The notes below the pieces were generated by a model. It made no database searches. It was not told where the DNA came from and saw only the letters and a list, made by a program, of their open reading frames with translations. A stretch of DNA of 64,000 nucleotides from Aliarcobacter cryaerophilus ATCC 43158 (GTDB lineage Bacteria > Campylobacterota > Campylobacteria > Campylobacterales > Arcobacteraceae), in the NCBI RefSeq assembly GCF_003660105.1, contig NZ_CP032823.1, positions 1,612,001 through 1,676,000 of the forward strand. The letters run 5' to 3'. The position numbers and the translations under genes are program-made. The stretch's first letter is position 1. Each line of letters begins with the position of its first letter. This document shows, piece after piece, positions 41,260 to 53,971 of this stretch.

Positions 41260-42060
41260 ATGAGTGACCTAGTAGAGGGTTATTTAGGGAAAACCGAAGA
41301 AGGGAAAAAAAGTAGATTACCTGCAAAACTTGACTTTATTCAAAGTTTTACAGGTGGTTTTTTAGCTTTATTTATGTGGGCGCATATGATGCTTGTTGCA
41401 TCAATATTGGTGTCAAATGATTTTATGTACCAAGTTACAAAATTATTAGAAGGTAGCTTTATATTTGAAGATGGAAATCCTCTTTTAGTATCTATTGCTG
41501 CACTTGTTATTTTTGTTATTTTTATTGTTCATGCAGCTTTAGGAATGAGAAAATTACCAGGTAACTTTAAACAGTATCAAGTAATAAAAGCTCATGCAAA
41601 AAGTATGGGACATGATGATACAAAATTATGGTTTACACAAGCATTTACAGGATTTGCAATGTTCTTCTTAGGATCAGTGCATTTATATGTAATTATGACA
41701 CACCCAGATCAAATAGGTCCTTACGAAAGTAGTGCAAGAGTTTGGGATGAATATATGTGGCCACTGTATATTCTTTTATTATTAGCTGTTGAATTCCATG
41801 GAACAATTGGTCTTTATAGACTTTGTGTAAAATGGGGATGGTTTGATGGTGAAAATCCAAAAGCAACAAGAAAAGCACTTAAAAAACTTAAATGGGCATT
41901 AACAGTATTTTTCTTAGTTTTAGGATTTGCATCACTTGCTGCTTATATGAAAATTGGTTACGAAAACTCTAAAAATAATGTTCCTAGAGATTCATTTAAA
42001 CCATCTGCACATATTATGAATTATGACTTAAAAACTAAAAGTGTTGGAGGAATCGCATAA
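41260..42060 (+). CDS. frdC: Fumarate reductase/succinate dehydrogenase cytochrome b subunit
   Basis: Dihaem membrane anchor of a Wolinella-type quinol:fumarate reductase. The 266 residues keep the four axial histidines, here His42, His91, His141 and His180. They also keep the glutamates equivalent to E66 and E180 of W. succinogenes FrdC (here Glu64 and Glu178), which take part in compensating transmembrane proton transfer. Five membrane segments are visible. Gene order C-A-B and near-identical stretches such as [13 protein letters not shown] support the call. AAAGGA precedes ATG; its stop overlaps frdA. Confidence 0.96.
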
Positions 42061-44045
42061 TGAAAATTAATTACTGTGATGCATTAGTAATTGGTGGTGG
42101 ATTAGCAGGTCTTAGAGCTGCAGTTGCTGCACAAAAAAAGGGATTAAGTACAATTGTTTTATCTTTAGTTCCAGTTAAAAGATCTCATAGTGCTGCTGCT
42201 CAAGGTGGGATGCAAGCATCTTTAGGAAACTCTAAGATGTCTGATGGAGATAATGAGGATTTACACTTTGCAGATACTGTAAAAGGTTCTGACTGGGGAT
42301 GTGATCAAGATGTTGCAAGAATGTTTGTTCACACTGCACCAAAAGCAATTAGAGAACTTGCAAGCTGGGGTGTACCTTGGAGTAGAGTTGAAAAAGGTAC
42401 AAGAGAAGCTGTTATAAATGCTAAAAAAACAACTATAACTGAAGATGAAGATAGACATGGATTAATCACATCAAGAGACTTTGGTGGTACTAAAAAATGG
42501 AGAACTTGTTATACAGCTGATGCAACTGGACATACTATGTTATTTGGTGTTGCAAATGAAGCTTTAAGACATGATGTTGATATTAGAGATAGAAAAGAAG
42601 CTTTAAGCATAATTCATGAAAATGGAAGATGTTATGGAGCAATTGTTCGAGATTTAATTACTGGTGAATTAGAAGCTTATGTTGCAAAAGGTACATGTAT
42701 CGCAACTGGTGGATATGGAAGAGTATTTAAACAAACAACAAATGCTGTTATTTGTGAAGGTACAGGTGCAGCAATTGCTCTTGAAACTGGAATTGCAACT
42801 TTAGGAAATATGGAAGCTGTTCAGTTTCATCCAACACCAATCGTTCCTTCTGGAATTCTTTTAACAGAAGGTTGTAGAGGAGATGGTGGAATCTTAAGAG
42901 ACGTTGATGGTCATAGATTTATGCCTGATTATGAACCTGAGAAAAAAGAATTAGCATCAAGAGACGTTGTTTCAAGAAGAATGATTGAGCATATTAGAAA
43001 TGGTAAAGGTGTTCCTTCTCCTTATGGATATCACGTATGGTTAGATATTTCTATTTTGGGAAGAGAGCATATTGAGAAAAACTTAAGAGATGTTCAAGAA
43101 ATTTGTCAAATTTTTAACGGTATTGATCCAGCTGATGAAGGTCCAAAAGGTTGGGCTCCAGTTCTTCCAATGCAACACTACTCAATGGGTGGAATTAGAA
43201 CAAAACCAACAGGAGAATCTCAAAATCTAGCAGGACTATTTGCTTGTGGTGAAGCTGCTTGTTGGGATATGCATGGATTTAATAGACTTGGAGGAAATAG
43301 TGTTTCTGAAACAGTTGTTGCTGGTATGATTATTGGTAACTATTTTGCAGATTATTGCTTATCAAATGATGTAACAATTCCTACAGCAACTGTACAAAAA
43401 TTCTTAGATGCGCAAGATAAATATTTAGATGAACTTTTAGCTTATGAAGGTAATGAAGATATTTTCAAAATAAAAAATAGAATGAAACAACTAATGGATG
43501 ATAAAGTTGGTATTTTTAGAAGTGGAGAACCACTAAAAGAAGCTGTTGAAGAATTAAAAGAACTTTTAGCTAAAACTAAAAAAATCAATATTAAATCAAA
43601 AGAGAGAGCTGGAAATCCTGAACTTGAAGAGGCTTATAGAGTTCCTAAAATGTTGAAAATAGCACTTTGTGTTGCTAAAGGCGCAAGAGAAAGAACTGAA
43701 TCAAGAGGTGCTCACTATAGAGAAGATTTCTTAATGAGAGATGATAAAAATTGGTTGAATAGAACTCTTACATCTTGGGCAAATCCAAATGATATGGAAC
43801 CAACTATTACTTATGAACCACTTGATATTATGAAAATGGAAATGCCTCCTGCATTTAGAGGATATGGTGCAAAAGGTATGATTATTGAGCATGAATTATC
43901 AGCAGTTAGACAAGAGCAAGTTGATAGTATAAGTGAGAAAATGGAATCTGAAGGAAAAGATAGACATCAAATTCAAGATGCATTAATGCCATTTGATTTA
44001 CCAATGAACTATAAAGAGAAAAATGAAAGAGCAGGAGATAAATAA
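42060..44045 (+). CDS. frdA: Fumarate reductase/succinate dehydrogenase flavoprotein subunit
   Basis: Catalytic subunit that interconverts fumarate and succinate. The 661 residues have the FAD-binding start [12 protein letters not shown], covalent-FAD histidine His43 in [22 protein letters not shown] and [39 protein letters not shown] and [13 protein letters not shown] follow in the capping and FAD domains. Full length for the epsilon-type enzyme. It shares one base with both frdC and frdB, so the three are coupled. Direction in vivo cannot be read from sequence. Confidence 0.97.
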
Positions 44046-44776
44046 TGAGCACGCAAAAAGGTAGAGAAATTACAATTTCAGTTCTTAAATATAATCCTAG
44101 AAGTAAGGTTTCAAAACCTCACTTCGTTGAATATAAGTTAGAAGAGACACCAGGTATGACTCTTTTTATTGCTCTAACTCAAATAAGAGAGTTTCACGAT
44201 CCTGATTTATCTTTTGACTTTGTTTGTAGAGCTGGAATTTGCGGAAGTTGTGGAATGATGGTAAATGGAAAACCTGCATTAGGTTGTAGAACATTAATCG
44301 CAAACTATCCAACTGGAAAATTACAATTAATGCCAATGCCTGCATTTGAACTAATCAAAGATTTATCAGTAAATACTGGAAAATGGATGGATAGTATGAG
44401 TAAAAGAGTTGAATCTTGGGTTCACTCAGATCATCAAGTAGATATATCAAAACTTGAAGATAGAATAGAACCAAAAGTTGCAAATGATACTTTTGAGCTT
44501 GATAGATGTATTGAGTGTGGTATTTGTGTTGCATCTTGTGGAACAATGTTGATGAGACCAAATTTTGTTGGACCTGTTGGACTAAATAGAGTTGCAAGAT
44601 TTGAAATAGATCCACACGATAGCAGAACAGCTGAAGATTTCTATGAACTAATCGGTGATGATGATGGAGTATTTGGTTGTATGTCACTTATGGCTTGCGA
44701 AGACCATTGTCCAAAACATTTACCATTACAAAATAAAATTGCTTACTTAAGAAGAAAATTAGTAGCACTTAGATAG
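44045..44776 (+). CDS. frdB: Fumarate reductase/succinate dehydrogenase iron-sulfur subunit
   Basis: Carries three clusters between flavin and haem. The 243 residues hold a [2Fe-2S] site (Cys61, 66, 69, 81 in [13 protein letters not shown] and LGC) and a [4Fe-4S] site ([11 protein letters not shown], Cys155, 158, 161). The [3Fe-4S] cluster is expected from Cys165, Cys212 and Cys218 with Cys222 ([16 protein letters not shown]) sharing ligands in the usual way. It ends the frd operon; two hairpins and then a dynamin-like gene follow. Confidence 0.97.
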
Positions 44777-44778
44777 TT

Positions 44779-44805
44779 ATTTATGAAGGTTTTACCTTCA
44801 TAAAT
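44779..44805 (+). terminator. First hairpin after frdB
   Basis: ATTTATGAAGGT (44779-44790) and ACCTTCATAAAT (44794-44805) form a perfect 12-bp stem with a TTT loop, starting two bases after the frdB stop. No T-run follows; probably a 3'-end stabiliser working with the next hairpin. Confidence 0.5.
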
Positions 44806-44816
44806 CTAAATAATAG

Positions 44817-44854
44817 AAAAAGTTAAATATCATTAGGGATATTTAACTTTTTTT
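44817..44854 (+). terminator. Strong Rho-independent terminator between frdB and the dynamin-like pair
   Basis: AAAAAGTTAAATATC (44817-44831) and GATATTTAACTTTTT (44838-44852) form a perfect 15-bp stem with a 6-nt loop, merging into a T-run. Only 16 bases separate it from the next start codon, and these hold the AGGAG ribosome site. Confidence 0.8.
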
Positions 44855-44870
44855 ATTTAGGAGAAAATGG

Positions 44871-47213
44871 ATGAGTTTATCAAATGACTACTTTTTGTTG
44901 TACCATGGTATTAGTTTTCAGAAAAATTTAGAGCTTGAGCCTCTTGATGTAATTTTAGATGATAACTCTTTTACAATATTTGGATTGATTATTAGTGCAA
45001 ATAGAAAAAACTACGATAAATACTTAAATTTAAACTCATTTAAAACACTTTGCCAACAAATAAATATTAAAACTCCATCAAATATAAATGAGTTTCACAA
45101 TATTCAAAACAGTATTGTTGAATTAATATATGAAAAAAGTTCTAAAGATTTAATAACAACTTTAATTGAGTCATTTGAGTATTTAAATAATCAAAATATA
45201 TTAAATACAGAAGGTTTTAAAAAACTAATATCATTATTTGAAAATAAAAATATAGAAGACAGTGATTTAGAACATATAAAAAAAATTGAAAATGATAGTA
45301 AAAAACCATTTAAAGATTTAAAAGTTATTATAGAAAATACTTTAAATGAACTAAAAAAAGAGCTCAAAAGTAAAGAGATTTTACTAGAACTTGAAGATAT
45401 CAACTCTTATATGAATAATCAAAAATTCTCTATTGGAATAACAGGTGTTATGAATGCTGGGAAATCTACAATGTTAAATGCACTTATGGGAAAAGAGATT
45501 TTAGGAAGTGCTGTTGTTCCTGAAACTGCAAATTTAACAATTGTAAAACATAATACAACTGATAATGCAAAAGTATTTTATTGGAATAAAAAAGAGTGGC
45601 AAAAAATTGAAGATAGTGCAAATAGTTTAGAAAGTATGAGAGATTTTGTAGATGAAACAAATAGAGTTTTTGGTGAAAATCTAAAAAATTATGTACGAGA
45701 AACTTCAAGATTTGATGAAGTTGATATAAATGATTTAAAATCTTATACTTCAGCCGAACATAGTGCAAAAAAGTGTAACCTTGTAAAATATGTTGAACTT
45801 GGGAGCAATCTTAAATTTTTAAGTGATGGAATAGAAATAGTTGATACTCCAGGTCTTGATGACCCTGTTATTCAAAGAGAAGAGATTACAAAAGAGTACA
45901 TAAGTAAGTGTGATATGATGATACATCTTATGAATGTATCTCAAAGTGCAACTTTAAAAGATGTTGAATTTATTATAGATGCAGTTTTATATCAAAATAT
46001 ATCAAAGCTTTTGGTTGTAATTACAAGAGCTGATACTGTAACTAAAAAAAATCTAGATGAAGTTATACAATATACTAAAACTTCAATACAAAGACAACTA
46101 AAAGCTCAAAATAAAGACTCGCAGTTAGATCATATTTTAAAAACTATAAAATTTATTCCAATATCAGGTTACATGGCACTTTTGCATAGAACAGGAAGAG
46201 AAAAAGAAGCACTAGAAGCTGGATTTACTTTAGAAGATACAGGAATTTTAGAGATAGAAAATTACCTAATGGAGAGTTTATTTGGGACTTCTTCTGCTAA
46301 AGGAGATTTAGTAATTCAATCAGCAAAAACTCAAATTAATAGAGTTCTAGAGAAACAAATAGGATTTAATAACTATGAACTAACTTTATTAAATAAATCA
46401 AAAGATGAGCTTGAACTAGAATTAATAGAATTTAATAAGAAAAAAGATACAAATAAAAGAGTTCTTTCTTCTATGAATGAAGATATAAATTACTACAAAA
46501 ATGATGCTAAATCATATATAGACTCTTTAGAAACATTTTTACAAAGTGAGCTATTTGAACTTCAAAATATAATAAAACAAAGGGTTGTAAATGATACTAG
46601 ATACTCTTTGGAAAAAACAAAAAAACGACCTGAAAATGCAAGAGTAAAAGTTATTGTTGAAACTGCAATTAAAGATGGAATTATTGATGTTATAAGAGAT
46701 TATAGATATAAATTTATCAAAAAATCTCAAACAATAGGTGAACAATGTGAACAAAAATATCATGATTTAGGTTTTTTAATTGGACACAAAAATGAAAATT
46801 TTGATGCTAGAGGATTTTTTCAAGAAGATTTTAAAAGTGGTTTTTTAACTTCAAACAATGAAATTATGGTTAATCAAATAATTTTAGCTGTAACAAATGC
46901 AAAGGAGACAAAACTAAATGAGCTTGATAAAAATATTGAAGATATAGTGAAAAGTCAATTTAAAGCTATTGAAGAAGATATTAAAATAAAAGCAAAAAAA
47001 GTTAGTTCACTTTTAATTGAAAACTTTTTTGCTACACTAAATGCTCCACTAAAAGAGTTTGAACAAAGATTAAAAAAGGAAGAGGAAACTCTTGAGGAGA
47101 AAATCTCAACATTTGAAGATAATGAAAAAAATAAAGCTGAATTATCTATAAATTTACACAAAAATATCAAAAAACTTGAAAGTATTATGTTAAATATAAA
47201 AGGATTAAACTAA
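44871..47213 (+). CDS. Dynamin-like GTPase, first of a pair (Cj0411-like)
   Basis: Large GTPase predicted to act at membranes; the C. jejuni homologous pair forms heterotetramers that tether membranes. The 780 residues have a unique N-terminal region (about 1-180). The G domain follows with P-loop GVMNAGKST (192-200), switch I around VPETANLT, G3 DTPGLDDP and G4 TRAD. Long helical and coiled-coil segments (about 490-780) form the stalk. No signal peptide. AGGAG precedes ATG. It shares one base with the second GTPase, and both follow frdB as in C. jejuni. Confidence 0.9.
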   Translation: MSLSNDYFLLYHGISFQKNLELEPLDVILDDNSFTIFGLIISANRKNYDKYLNLNSFKTLCQQINIKTPSNINEFHNIQNSIVELIYEKSSKDLITTLIESFEYLNNQNILNTEGFKKLISLFENKNIEDSDLEHIKKIENDSKKPFKDLKVIIENTLNELKKELKSKEILLELEDINSYMNNQKFSIGITGVMNAGKSTMLNALMGKEILGSAVVPETANLTIVKHNTTDNAKVFYWNKKEWQKIEDSANSLESMRDFVDETNRVFGENLKNYVRETSRFDEVDINDLKSYTSAEHSAKKCNLVKYVELGSNLKFLSDGIEIVDTPGLDDPVIQREEITKEYISKCDMMIHLMNVSQSATLKDVEFIIDAVLYQNISKLLVVITRADTVTKKNLDEVIQYTKTSIQRQLKAQNKDSQLDHILKTIKFIPISGYMALLHRTGREKEALEAGFTLEDTGILEIENYLMESLFGTSSAKGDLVIQSAKTQINRVLEKQIGFNNYELTLLNKSKDELELELIEFNKKKDTNKRVLSSMNEDINYYKNDAKSYIDSLETFLQSELFELQNIIKQRVVNDTRYSLEKTKKRPENARVKVIVETAIKDGIIDVIRDYRYKFIKKSQTIGEQCEQKYHDLGFLIGHKNENFDARGFFQEDFKSGFLTSNNEIMVNQIILAVTNAKETKLNELDKNIEDIVKSQFKAIEEDIKIKAKKVSSLLIENFFATLNAPLKEFEQRLKKEEETLEEKISTFEDNEKNKAELSINLHKNIKKLESIMLNIKGLN

Positions 47214-49237
47214 TGAGCGCAAATTATAATATCCTAAAAAGCTTCGCTAATGAATACCATGAAAACAACTCAATAAAAGAGATAATTTATGAAGATGGAC
47301 TAGTTGGTGAAATCCAAAAAACAGTAGATAAACTTTTAGATGAAAAATTCCATCCATCAATTCAATTTCATACAATTTTAAATAAACAATTAAAAAGAGC
47401 TAGATATCCTATGGAAGTTGCAATTACTGGACAATTTAGTGCTGGAAAATCTACATTTTTAAATGCCCTACTCTCAAGAAATATTTTACCAACTGGGATT
47501 ACTCCAGTTACTTCTAAAGTAAATTTTATAAATTATGGTGAAGATTTTAAACTTAAAATTACATATTACTCTGGAGCAACAGAATTTGCACCAATAGAAA
47601 GCATTGCTGATTTTACAGACCAAAGACAAGATGAGATGCAAAATATAAAATATCTTACTCTTTATGCTCCAATGCCTATTTTAAAAGACATCTCGTTTGT
47701 TGATACTCCAGGACTTAACTCTCAGTCACAAAGTGATACAGATGTTACTAAAAGAGTTTTAAAAGATGTTGGTGGAATTATTTGGCTAACACTTATTGAT
47801 AATGCTGGAAAACTATCAGAAGCTCAAGTTTTAGAAGAGTATATGCAACATTTCAAAAATAAATCTTTATGTGTTTTAAATCAAAAAGATAAATTAACTC
47901 CTGAACAAGTAGATACAACTACAAATTATGTAAAAGATAAATTTGGTAAATATTTTGCAAAAGTTGTACCAATTTCAGCAATAAAAGCATTAGAAGGAAG
48001 AGCAAAAGAGAAAGATATTTTAATTGAAGATGAAAATATAAATCTATTATCTGAATTAAAAAAAGAGCTTTTAACAAGTGATATTGAAAATAACAATAAC
48101 ATTGAAAAACTTTTATCTGAGCATAAAAATAGAATAAAATCTATTAAATTAGCTGATACAACACATAATACAAAACTTTTAGAGGACTCAAATATTCAAG
48201 AAGTTTTAGATTTCATTGAAACTACTATTAGACCACAAGCTGCTGAAGCAAAAGAGTTTGCTATAAAAAAAGATTTAAGAAGTTTTTGTGATATTTTAAT
48301 AAAAGAGTATGAAACAATAATAAAAGTTTATGATGCTTTAGTTGAAATTTTGGAGTCTTGTGAGCCTAGAGTCCTAGAGTCCTTTGATAATATTTATAAA
48401 CAATACTCAAATGAACTATTTACTATATACAATTCTCTAGAGAGTATCATGGATAAAATTGCACATGAAACATTTAAAAATATAAAAAGAAAAAAATCTA
48501 CAAGATTTGAGATTTCAAAATCACTATTTGGTGAAAAAATAGAAAAATTCGATTTTGAAACTTTTTGGGTAGATAGTGATGCTATTTATAAAGCTTTATT
48601 TTACGATGACCAAACTATTGATAAAATGTTTAAAAGATCAATGAAACTTCTTAAAAATGTTGAGCTAGATACTGATGAATCTTTTAGAGAAGTTTTTAGA
48701 ATAGTAAAAAATGATATTGTAAAATGGCAAGAAAACTATGAACTTATAAGAAAAAATAGAGAAATAGCCTCAGATATTGAGTTTTCAAATACAAGACACT
48801 TTGCTGCAAAAGTTTATGAAAATGTTATAAGAGTCTTCTATAAAGCAATTTTAGAAAATATTTCAGCTTTAAGAAAAAAATTTGGATATTTTAATGGTGC
48901 ACTATCTTATTCATATATTCAAATTACTCAAGCAACTATTGCTCATTTTGAACAACAAATAGTAGAAAGTGAAGAGTTATACAAAAAAGAGCCAAGTAGA
49001 TTTTCTATAAATTGTCCAAGAGAAGATGAAATAGTTGGAAAACTAAAAGCAAATTTTGGTTTTGAAAAAATAGAAGATTTTTTAACTTCAAAAAGAAACT
49101 ATCTTTTTAAAATTATAAAATACTCAAAAGAGCAATATTTAGAGATAAATAAAGATAGAATACTTTTTGTAAAAGATAAAAAAGAGCAATTTATAACAAA
49201 AATAGAAGAGCTTGAAAAAATAAAAAATGAGATATAA
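47213..49237 (+). CDS. Dynamin-like GTPase, second of a pair (Cj0412-like)
   Basis: Partner of the preceding GTPase. The 674 residues have a short N-terminal helical part, P-loop GQFSAGKST (73-81), TGITPVTSKV as switch I and G3 VDTPGLNSQSQ. In place of the usual NKxD the G4 reads NQKD (in LCVLNQKDKLT). Helical stalk segments with a more hydrophobic region make up the C-terminal half. Coupled to its partner by a TAATG junction, in keeping with stoichiometric assembly. Its role (division, membrane repair or trafficking) is unknown. Confidence 0.9.
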   Translation: MSANYNILKSFANEYHENNSIKEIIYEDGLVGEIQKTVDKLLDEKFHPSIQFHTILNKQLKRARYPMEVAITGQFSAGKSTFLNALLSRNILPTGITPVTSKVNFINYGEDFKLKITYYSGATEFAPIESIADFTDQRQDEMQNIKYLTLYAPMPILKDISFVDTPGLNSQSQSDTDVTKRVLKDVGGIIWLTLIDNAGKLSEAQVLEEYMQHFKNKSLCVLNQKDKLTPEQVDTTTNYVKDKFGKYFAKVVPISAIKALEGRAKEKDILIEDENINLLSELKKELLTSDIENNNNIEKLLSEHKNRIKSIKLADTTHNTKLLEDSNIQEVLDFIETTIRPQAAEAKEFAIKKDLRSFCDILIKEYETIIKVYDALVEILESCEPRVLESFDNIYKQYSNELFTIYNSLESIMDKIAHETFKNIKRKKSTRFEISKSLFGEKIEKFDFETFWVDSDAIYKALFYDDQTIDKMFKRSMKLLKNVELDTDESFREVFRIVKNDIVKWQENYELIRKNREIASDIEFSNTRHFAAKVYENVIRVFYKAILENISALRKKFGYFNGALSYSYIQITQATIAHFEQQIVESEELYKKEPSRFSINCPREDEIVGKLKANFGFEKIEDFLTSKRNYLFKIIKYSKEQYLEINKDRILFVKDKKEQFITKIEELEKIKNEI

Positions 49238-53806: not shown

Positions 53807-53824
53807 TTAATATAAAATCAAATT

Positions 53825-53856
53825 AAAAAGAGAGTGATTTTTTACTCTCTTTTTTA
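53825..53856 (+). terminator. Rho-independent terminator of the peroxiredoxin gene
   Basis: AAAAAGAGAGT (53825-53835) and ACTCTCTTTTT (53844-53854) form an 11-bp perfect stem with an 8-nt loop, and the T-run continues to 53855. The 115 bases after it, up to rho, are AT-rich without a clear promoter match. Confidence 0.75.
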
Positions 53857-53971
53857 CTTTTCTTGACAAATTTATAAATATTAACTAAAATCACATTTCA
53901 CTTTTTTTAAAAGCTACAAAAACTACAAAAAAATACATATATTTTATGTAAATTCAAAGGTAAAAAAACTC

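Follow-up and report, generated by a model that had tools for sequence, protein, structure and literature searches.

We analyzed a window of 64,000 nucleotides (the whole stretch of DNA under study) from Aliarcobacter cryaerophilus ATCC 43158, in which the fumarate reductase genes frdCAB are followed, on the same strand, by two genes for dynamin-like GTPases (Table 1). The start codon of DLP2 overlaps the stop codon of DLP1. Judged by sequence similarity, DLP1 is the ortholog of Cj-DLP1 and DLP2 that of Cj-DLP2, and the closest named relative found for DLP1 is the 97% identical protein of A. cryaerophilus gv. crypticus LMG 9065.

Table 1. Genes and intergenic features of the frd-DLP locus (window coordinates)
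Feature	Position	Strand	Description
frdC	41260-42060	+	Fumarate reductase subunit; Pfam Sdh_cyt
frdA	42060-44045	+	Fumarate reductase subunit; Pfam FAD_binding_2, Succ_DH_flav_C
frdB	44045-44776	+	Iron-sulfur subunit of fumarate reductase, closes frdCAB; Pfam Fer2_3, Fer4_8
HP1	44780-44804	+	11-bp hairpin (fold), begins 3 nt past the frdB stop, without U tract
HP2	44812-44857	+	Terminator-like hairpin (fold); predicted 20 pairs including A/U flanks (44812-44831/44838-44857)
TATCAT	44828-44833	+	Sole -10-like hexamer (5 of 6) inside HP2; candidate only
Shine-Dalgarno site of DLP1	44859-44863	+	AGGAG; comparable purine-rich site before the start in relatives
DLP1	44871-47213	+	Dynamin-like GTPase; Pfam Dynamin_N, 3.2e-27; PDB 5owv chain A, E 2.3e-72
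DLP2	47213-49237	+	Dynamin-like GTPase; Pfam Dynamin_N, 1.3e-30; PDB 5owv chain C, E 4.1e-72

The gap between the frdB stop and the DLP1 start measures 94 nt and holds two hairpins, the first of which, HP1, had been missed in an earlier note on this DNA. The second, HP2, begins ∼36 to 41 nt past the frdB stop and has a core of 15 perfectly complementary base pairs (arms 44817-44831 and 44838-44852, loop 44832-44837) with a tract of seven T's (44848-44854). Between the end of HP2 and the DLP1 start lie 16 nt (44855-44870), which contain AGGAG and no other recognized element. The earlier note had described both a 15-bp hairpin with a T tract 16 nt before DLP1 and an intervening space holding only the ribosome site, and sequence, folding, and shuffling agree with it on these points. 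The segment 44777-44890 folds at -34.5 kcal/mol (z -5.99), with none of 200 shuffles equally stable, and none of 2,000 dinucleotide shuffles of the 94-nt gap reached -18 kcal/mol with a hairpin resembling a terminator. HP2 thus has the form of an intrinsic terminator, a stable stem-loop followed immediately by a U tract. It was not listed by a consensus terminator scan because that scan needs at least 3 G-C pairs and the HP2 stem has 2.

How unusual this arrangement is within the genome was gauged on 444 kb (the window plus 19 other stretches), in which simple open reading frame calls gave 273 codirectional gene pairs, 112 of them separated by 30 nt or more. A hairpin with a T-run was found in 22 of the 112 gaps (shuffle mean, 8.9) and reached -10 kcal/mol or lower in 13 (shuffle mean, 0.475). 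Only 2 of these 13 hairpins, HP2 and one at L127:1108, leave no more than 20 nt before the gene that follows, and the HP2-DLP1 spacing is therefore unusual in this genome. Under a stricter filter, which retained 5 of the 112 gaps, the distances from hairpin to gene were 12 (HP2), 62, 84, 107, and 195 nt. The second tight junction (L127, ∼1108-1160) carries the hairpin AATATACACACTTTTAAAGTGTGTATATT, which ends ∼13 nt before the next start and has no proper U tract.

The junction was then compared across the Arcobacteraceae, with junctions of identical intergenic letters counted once and loci without a readable DLP1 start (e.g., L047) omitted. In all 79 distinct junctions, frdB is followed by DLP1 in the same direction, which is the conserved gene order expected around an intra-operon terminator, and HP2 is present in 78 of them. 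The sole junction without HP2 belongs to a single genome of genus g8 (L045/L106) and has a 56-nt gap with no obvious promoter. Two genomes of genus g82 (L102 and L103) lack HP1, as judged by eye, and both retain HP2. Across 61 junctions measured as one set, HP2 follows the frdB stop by 41.2 nt (standard deviation, 5.3), versus a range of 16 to 157 nt from HP2 to DLP1. The hairpin thus belongs to the junction and keeps its place relative to the frdB stop; it is not part of a leader whose position is set by DLP1. The HP2-to-DLP1 distance is tight (≤31 nt) in 56 of the 78 junctions with HP2 and long (44 to 157 nt) in the other 22, where HP2 is nevertheless kept; the two states have changed into each other at least five times on the DLP1 tree, and genus g9 contains both.

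Five copies of frdB that have no DLP1 behind them (L107 to L111), all of them paralogs or a duplicate (one at 88% identity, four at 57 to 66%), carry no HP2. This argues against a terminator that accompanies frdB everywhere, and the label "frd terminator" therefore applies at the DLP1 junction only. The 88% copy (L111; G029:C1:2910671-2914399) carries a different hairpin, and the gene 49 nt downstream of it is presumably chemotaxis receptor-like. An exact search for the HP2 pattern was positive in 72 of 104 genomes of the family, mostly once or twice per strand. We also built a covariance model, for which 5 of the 24 training rows came from this genus and 150 candidates per genome were scored; its best match was the frdB-DLP1 junction in 31 of 31 genomes of the genus, with an additional weaker match elsewhere in 10 of the 31 (E 8e-5 to 9e-3). 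In the genome studied here, the next-best place after the junction had an E value of 0.016. The few pattern matches per strand and the best covariance match at the junction weaken the idea that the HP2 motif is a genome-wide repeat.

Comparison of the stems shows HP2 to be an RNA structure. In an alignment of 24 distinct HP2 stems, 96.5% of the cells are paired, 8 of 19 pairs are altered on both sides, and 39 compensatory cells are found versus 12.8 (standard deviation, 3.6) in shuffles. Among 239 cells in 24 distinct 10-bp stems, the non-Watson-Crick cells comprise 18 G-U versus 1 A-C and 1 other, and the sense RNA is therefore the form of HP2 that must pair, as is the case for an intrinsic terminator acting through the transcribed RNA. 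The loop varies in length (the matched hairpin spans 31 to 48 nt), and this variation, together with the sense-RNA type of wobble, speaks against a DNA operator. Positions G10, A13, A14, and A17 and their partners are invariant in all 24 distinct stems, and the tail reads CTTTTT in 24 of 24 aligned rows.

Within the genus, the HP2 stem is 98.6% identical, with 2 distinct 9-mers among 31, and the HP1 stem is 58% identical over 9 nt, with 11 distinct among 31. As a control we used the terminator between prx and rho in the same genus, taken from 22 of 30 loci after leaving out six prx copies that lack rho behind them and two in which the script called no hairpin; the base of its 5′ arm has 54% ungapped identity and 13 distinct 9-mers among 22. 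The nuoN-frdC hairpin, compared in the eleven named loci whose sequence covers that gap, likewise varies freely. HP2 is not the stronger hairpin, with 2.0 versus 3.5 G-C pairs and a core of -8.6 versus -9.6 kcal/mol relative to prx-rho, and its core free energy spans -6.7 to -16.7 kcal/mol while the stem sequence stays constant. On a d'Aubenton-Carafa type score, HP2 of the window scores 11.2, tight junctions average 4.1, long junctions 9.5, and prx-rho terminators 18.0; the U-tract values are alike. These predicted values suggest a positive-scoring terminator of modest strength, below the control terminators. The HP2 stem is far more conserved than theirs. So long and nearly invariant a stem exceeds what a plain terminator requires, which raises the question of why a modest predicted terminator is kept letter by letter throughout the genus while its neighbors' terminators drift.

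One answer would be that HP2 is mainly a processing or stabilizing hairpin, such that frdCAB, DLP1, and DLP2 form one mRNA that is cut or trimmed at the A/U stem (e.g., by RNase III) to give frd and DLP messages that differ in how stable they are. A long perfect stem of ∼20 pairs, the tandem arrangement of HP1 and HP2, the conservation far above that of the controls, and a strength that varies where the sequence does not would all suit such a role, which we nonetheless consider distinctly improbable in view of the conserved U tract, placed exactly where a terminator tail belongs, and of the resemblance of stem and tail to an ordinary terminator. A second answer, which we hold to be quite unlikely, is that a trans-acting factor, either an RNA-binding protein or a double-strand RNase, recognizes the HP2 consensus AAAAAGTYAAnTA:TAnTTRACTTTTT and controls the share of frd transcription that gets as far as the DLP pair. 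This would extend to a second set of loci. An outer stem like that of HP2 (AAAAAGTCAAG.../...CTTGACTTTTT) lies between two genes in 10 of 22 loci of relatives (L200:1960-1987, L201, L206, L208, L210 to L214, and L221), 18 to 29 nt past one stop and 22 to 66 nt before the next start, in a cluster of what we take to be sox-type genes. Under such a factor, the sox and frd stems would form one class linking respiratory operons to promoterless downstream genes. We treat the recurrence as a lead, not as proof, and it may point either to sequence-specific recognition or to a habit of the lineage.

The earlier note had further argued that no room for a promoter remains after the hairpin and that transcription of the pair must therefore pass through it. 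The first part holds for this genome and for the 56 tight junctions, in which the HP2-to-DLP1 distance leaves no promoter space; in the window, a consensus scan of the + strand came up empty for sigma70-type sites from 44467 to 45174. For the second part, "must" is too strong. A promoter could overlap HP2 itself. Its -10 element would span the upper part of the 5′ arm and the loop (here TATCAT) or, in species other than this one, fall in the tail (TATATT), and transcription would begin at the Shine-Dalgarno site or already in the 3′ arm. The DLP mRNA would then never hold the whole hairpin; a start from TATCAT, if that candidate is real, would bypass it. Hexamers matching the -10 consensus at 5 of 6 positions do occur in or after HP2 in 43 of the 56 tight junctions, where 32.9 were expected, and the Campylobacter sigma70 promoter described in PMC3656092 (an extended -10 with A/T-rich sequence upstream and no -35 box) is easily matched in such DNA. 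However, the hexamer switches position between clades (26 of the 56 have it in the stem and 24 in the tail), no position is common to all tight junctions, and 13 of the 56 have none at all. The hexamers are by-products of the stem and tail sequences, conserved even where DLP1 is far away, and no TG extension was seen in addition to the empty consensus scan. Taken together, we judge an overlapping promoter to be unlikely.

Other places for a promoter were also considered. Between the frdB stop and HP2, -10-like hexamers occur in 6 of the 56 tight junctions versus 23.5 expected from shuffles, a count to be read with the constraint that HP1 itself places on that sequence. Toward the 3′ end of frdB, synonymous variability in the genus is 0.057 over the final 13 degenerate codons that were scored (window 44738-44776), versus 0.133 overall; this is a weak lead to a promoter possibly hidden in the end of the gene, where no conserved extended -10 was recognized. 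Among the long junctions, 7 of 22, all from genus g9, have a common block behind HP2 in which TTAAAGTCAT precedes a TATNAT-like hexamer, as would be expected if those lines own a separate promoter.

A different proposal of the earlier note was that the hairpin is an attenuator in the leader of the DLP pair, and this found no support in the comparison. In a true conditional attenuator, a signal would shift HP2 between terminator and antiterminator forms, and the position of HP2 immediately upstream of the ribosome site of the gene to be regulated is what one would look for. Neither an upstream antiterminator structure nor a fixed relation to DLP1 was found, however. When the HP2 5′ arm was searched against the upstream 120 nt of frdB plus the gap, no partner exceeded mononucleotide shuffles (mean, -4.3 versus -5.0 kcal/mol in 61 junctions), which leaves an attenuator with a competing upstream antiterminator unsupported. 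The distance from HP2 is conserved to frdB and not to DLP1, with the hairpin persisting even at 44 to 157 nt from the latter, and a ribosome at the frdB stop would reach over HP1 but leave HP2 free. An Rfam search of the whole window gave no family at gathering score, the best weak match (E 0.022) being far below the cutoff; HP2 thus matched no known RNA family at that score, the matches being weak and of the kind expected by chance. We therefore regard a conditional attenuator as very improbable.

Outside the family, 20 outgroup stretches were inspected, 7 of which have no usable frdB-DLP1 junction (L138, L139, L141, L142, L144, L145, and L146). Family f10, apparently comprising Campylobacter relatives, is represented by 12 stretches: 8 with frdB before DLP1, 2 with DLP1 and no frdB, and 2 with no match. 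In 6 of the 8 frdB-linked junctions, the start codon of DLP1 falls within frdB or no more than 30 nt behind it, and a C/G-rich hairpin lies in that space; the other 2 have longer gaps. In this tight group (L132, L133, and L135, together with L134, L136, and L137), DLP1 apparently starts within frdB, at a TTG codon, or ≤30 nt past the stop, and the hairpin occupies the expected position of the ribosome site. Family f20 has a hairpin of its own and a shared promoter-like block. Family f9 is represented by two loci, and in L147 a hairpin without a U tract (∼28 to 70 nt past frdB) directly precedes the DLP1 Shine-Dalgarno site.

Since no room for a promoter is left after HP2 in the 56 tight Arcobacteraceae junctions, nor between frdB and DLP1 in the 6 tight f10 junctions, DLP mRNA is most simply explained by read-through from frd. 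From the anatomy of the junction and its comparison among relatives, cotranscription of frd and DLP through such read-through emerges as the likeliest account, and we consider it slightly better supported than its denial that HP2 is a modest intrinsic terminator and that read-through of frd transcripts supplies most of the DLP1-DLP2 mRNA. Most RNA polymerases leaving frd would stop at the U tract of HP2, while a fraction of frd transcription would pass it and yield the main DLP1-DLP2 mRNA. On this read-through mRNA, DLP1 would be translated from the AGGAG just behind HP2, which has a mean pairing probability of 0.63 computed for the read-through leader. The DLP pair would thereby form a throttled tail of the frd operon, expressed at a low level that rises and falls with frd transcription.

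Published measurements in other bacteria allow several of these steps to be judged by analogy. In an E. coli test (PMC4824070), a terminator located 28 bp away from a stop codon worked with ∼90% efficiency and one at 5 bp with less than 10%; given the distance of HP2 from the frdB stop, translating ribosomes should by this analogy not disable it. Terminator read-through is common in E. coli and uncorrelated there with hairpin free energy (PMC6131387). In A. butzleri, fumarate reductase activity is several-fold higher without oxygen (PMC2147049), and if the pair is fed by read-through from frd, DLP mRNA should rise likewise. The earlier suggestion that DLP levels are tied to respiration may be kept as a possibility. 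We also asked whether stem strength is tuned to whether a promoter is present, in which case tight junctions should have the weaker stems. The raw means of tight and long junctions lie in that direction (2.2 versus 3.5 G-C pairs; -9.3 versus -11.4 kcal/mol), but neither difference holds in phylogenetic contrasts (P = 0.10 for G-C pairs and P = 0.14 for free energy); genus medians give no relation for free energy (P = 0.76) and P = 0.04 for G-C pairs. Such tuning is thus unsupported after phylogenetic contrasts. If the read-through account is true, the bacterial mitofusin-like DLP pair, whose role is still speculative, gains an expression context as the throttled extension of an anaerobic fumarate reductase operon.

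The locus can be set beside several known systems. Cj-DLP1 and Cj-DLP2 of Campylobacter jejuni are likewise an adjacent pair, represented by chains A and C of PDB 5owv, but they are placed in an operon, cj0411-cj0413, that includes an HcpA-like gene (PMC6104087). The passages of PMC6104087 considered here mention neither frd nor a promoter or terminator. Literature searches on Cj0411, the Cj0409 operon, and Arcobacter transcription starts, fumarate reductase, and dynamin-like proteins gave no description of the frdB-DLP1 junction that we recognized among the matches listed.

Like transcription attenuators, HP2 is a terminator-like hairpin directly before a Shine-Dalgarno site; unlike them, it came with no antiterminator, leader peptide, or ligand-binding RNA that we could find, and what stays constant is its distance to frdB, whereas that to the gene behind it varies. 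The prx-rho hairpin of the same genus and family shares with HP2 a hairpin and U tract between codirectional genes, and the nuoN-frdC hairpin also sits between codirectional genes. In both, unlike at HP2, the stems drift, and the next gene is preceded by ample space (often ∼100 nt or more) with promoter-like sequence. In the prx-rho gap (window 53807-53971), for example, the terminator is followed in many members of the genus by a promoter-like TTGACA...TAAAAT/TACAAT.

The intra-operon terminators with read-through that were mapped in E. coli by SMRT-Cappable-seq (PMC6131387) have the same hairpin and U tract between codirectional genes. As may also hold at HP2, the downstream gene has no obvious promoter, and its level would follow read-through. 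HP2 differs from these sites in a stem that is nearly invariant across the genus and strongly conserved across the family, and in that its read-through is predicted, from sequence, where theirs was recorded. The frd-DLP junction is plausibly a case of this known way of keeping a downstream gene low.
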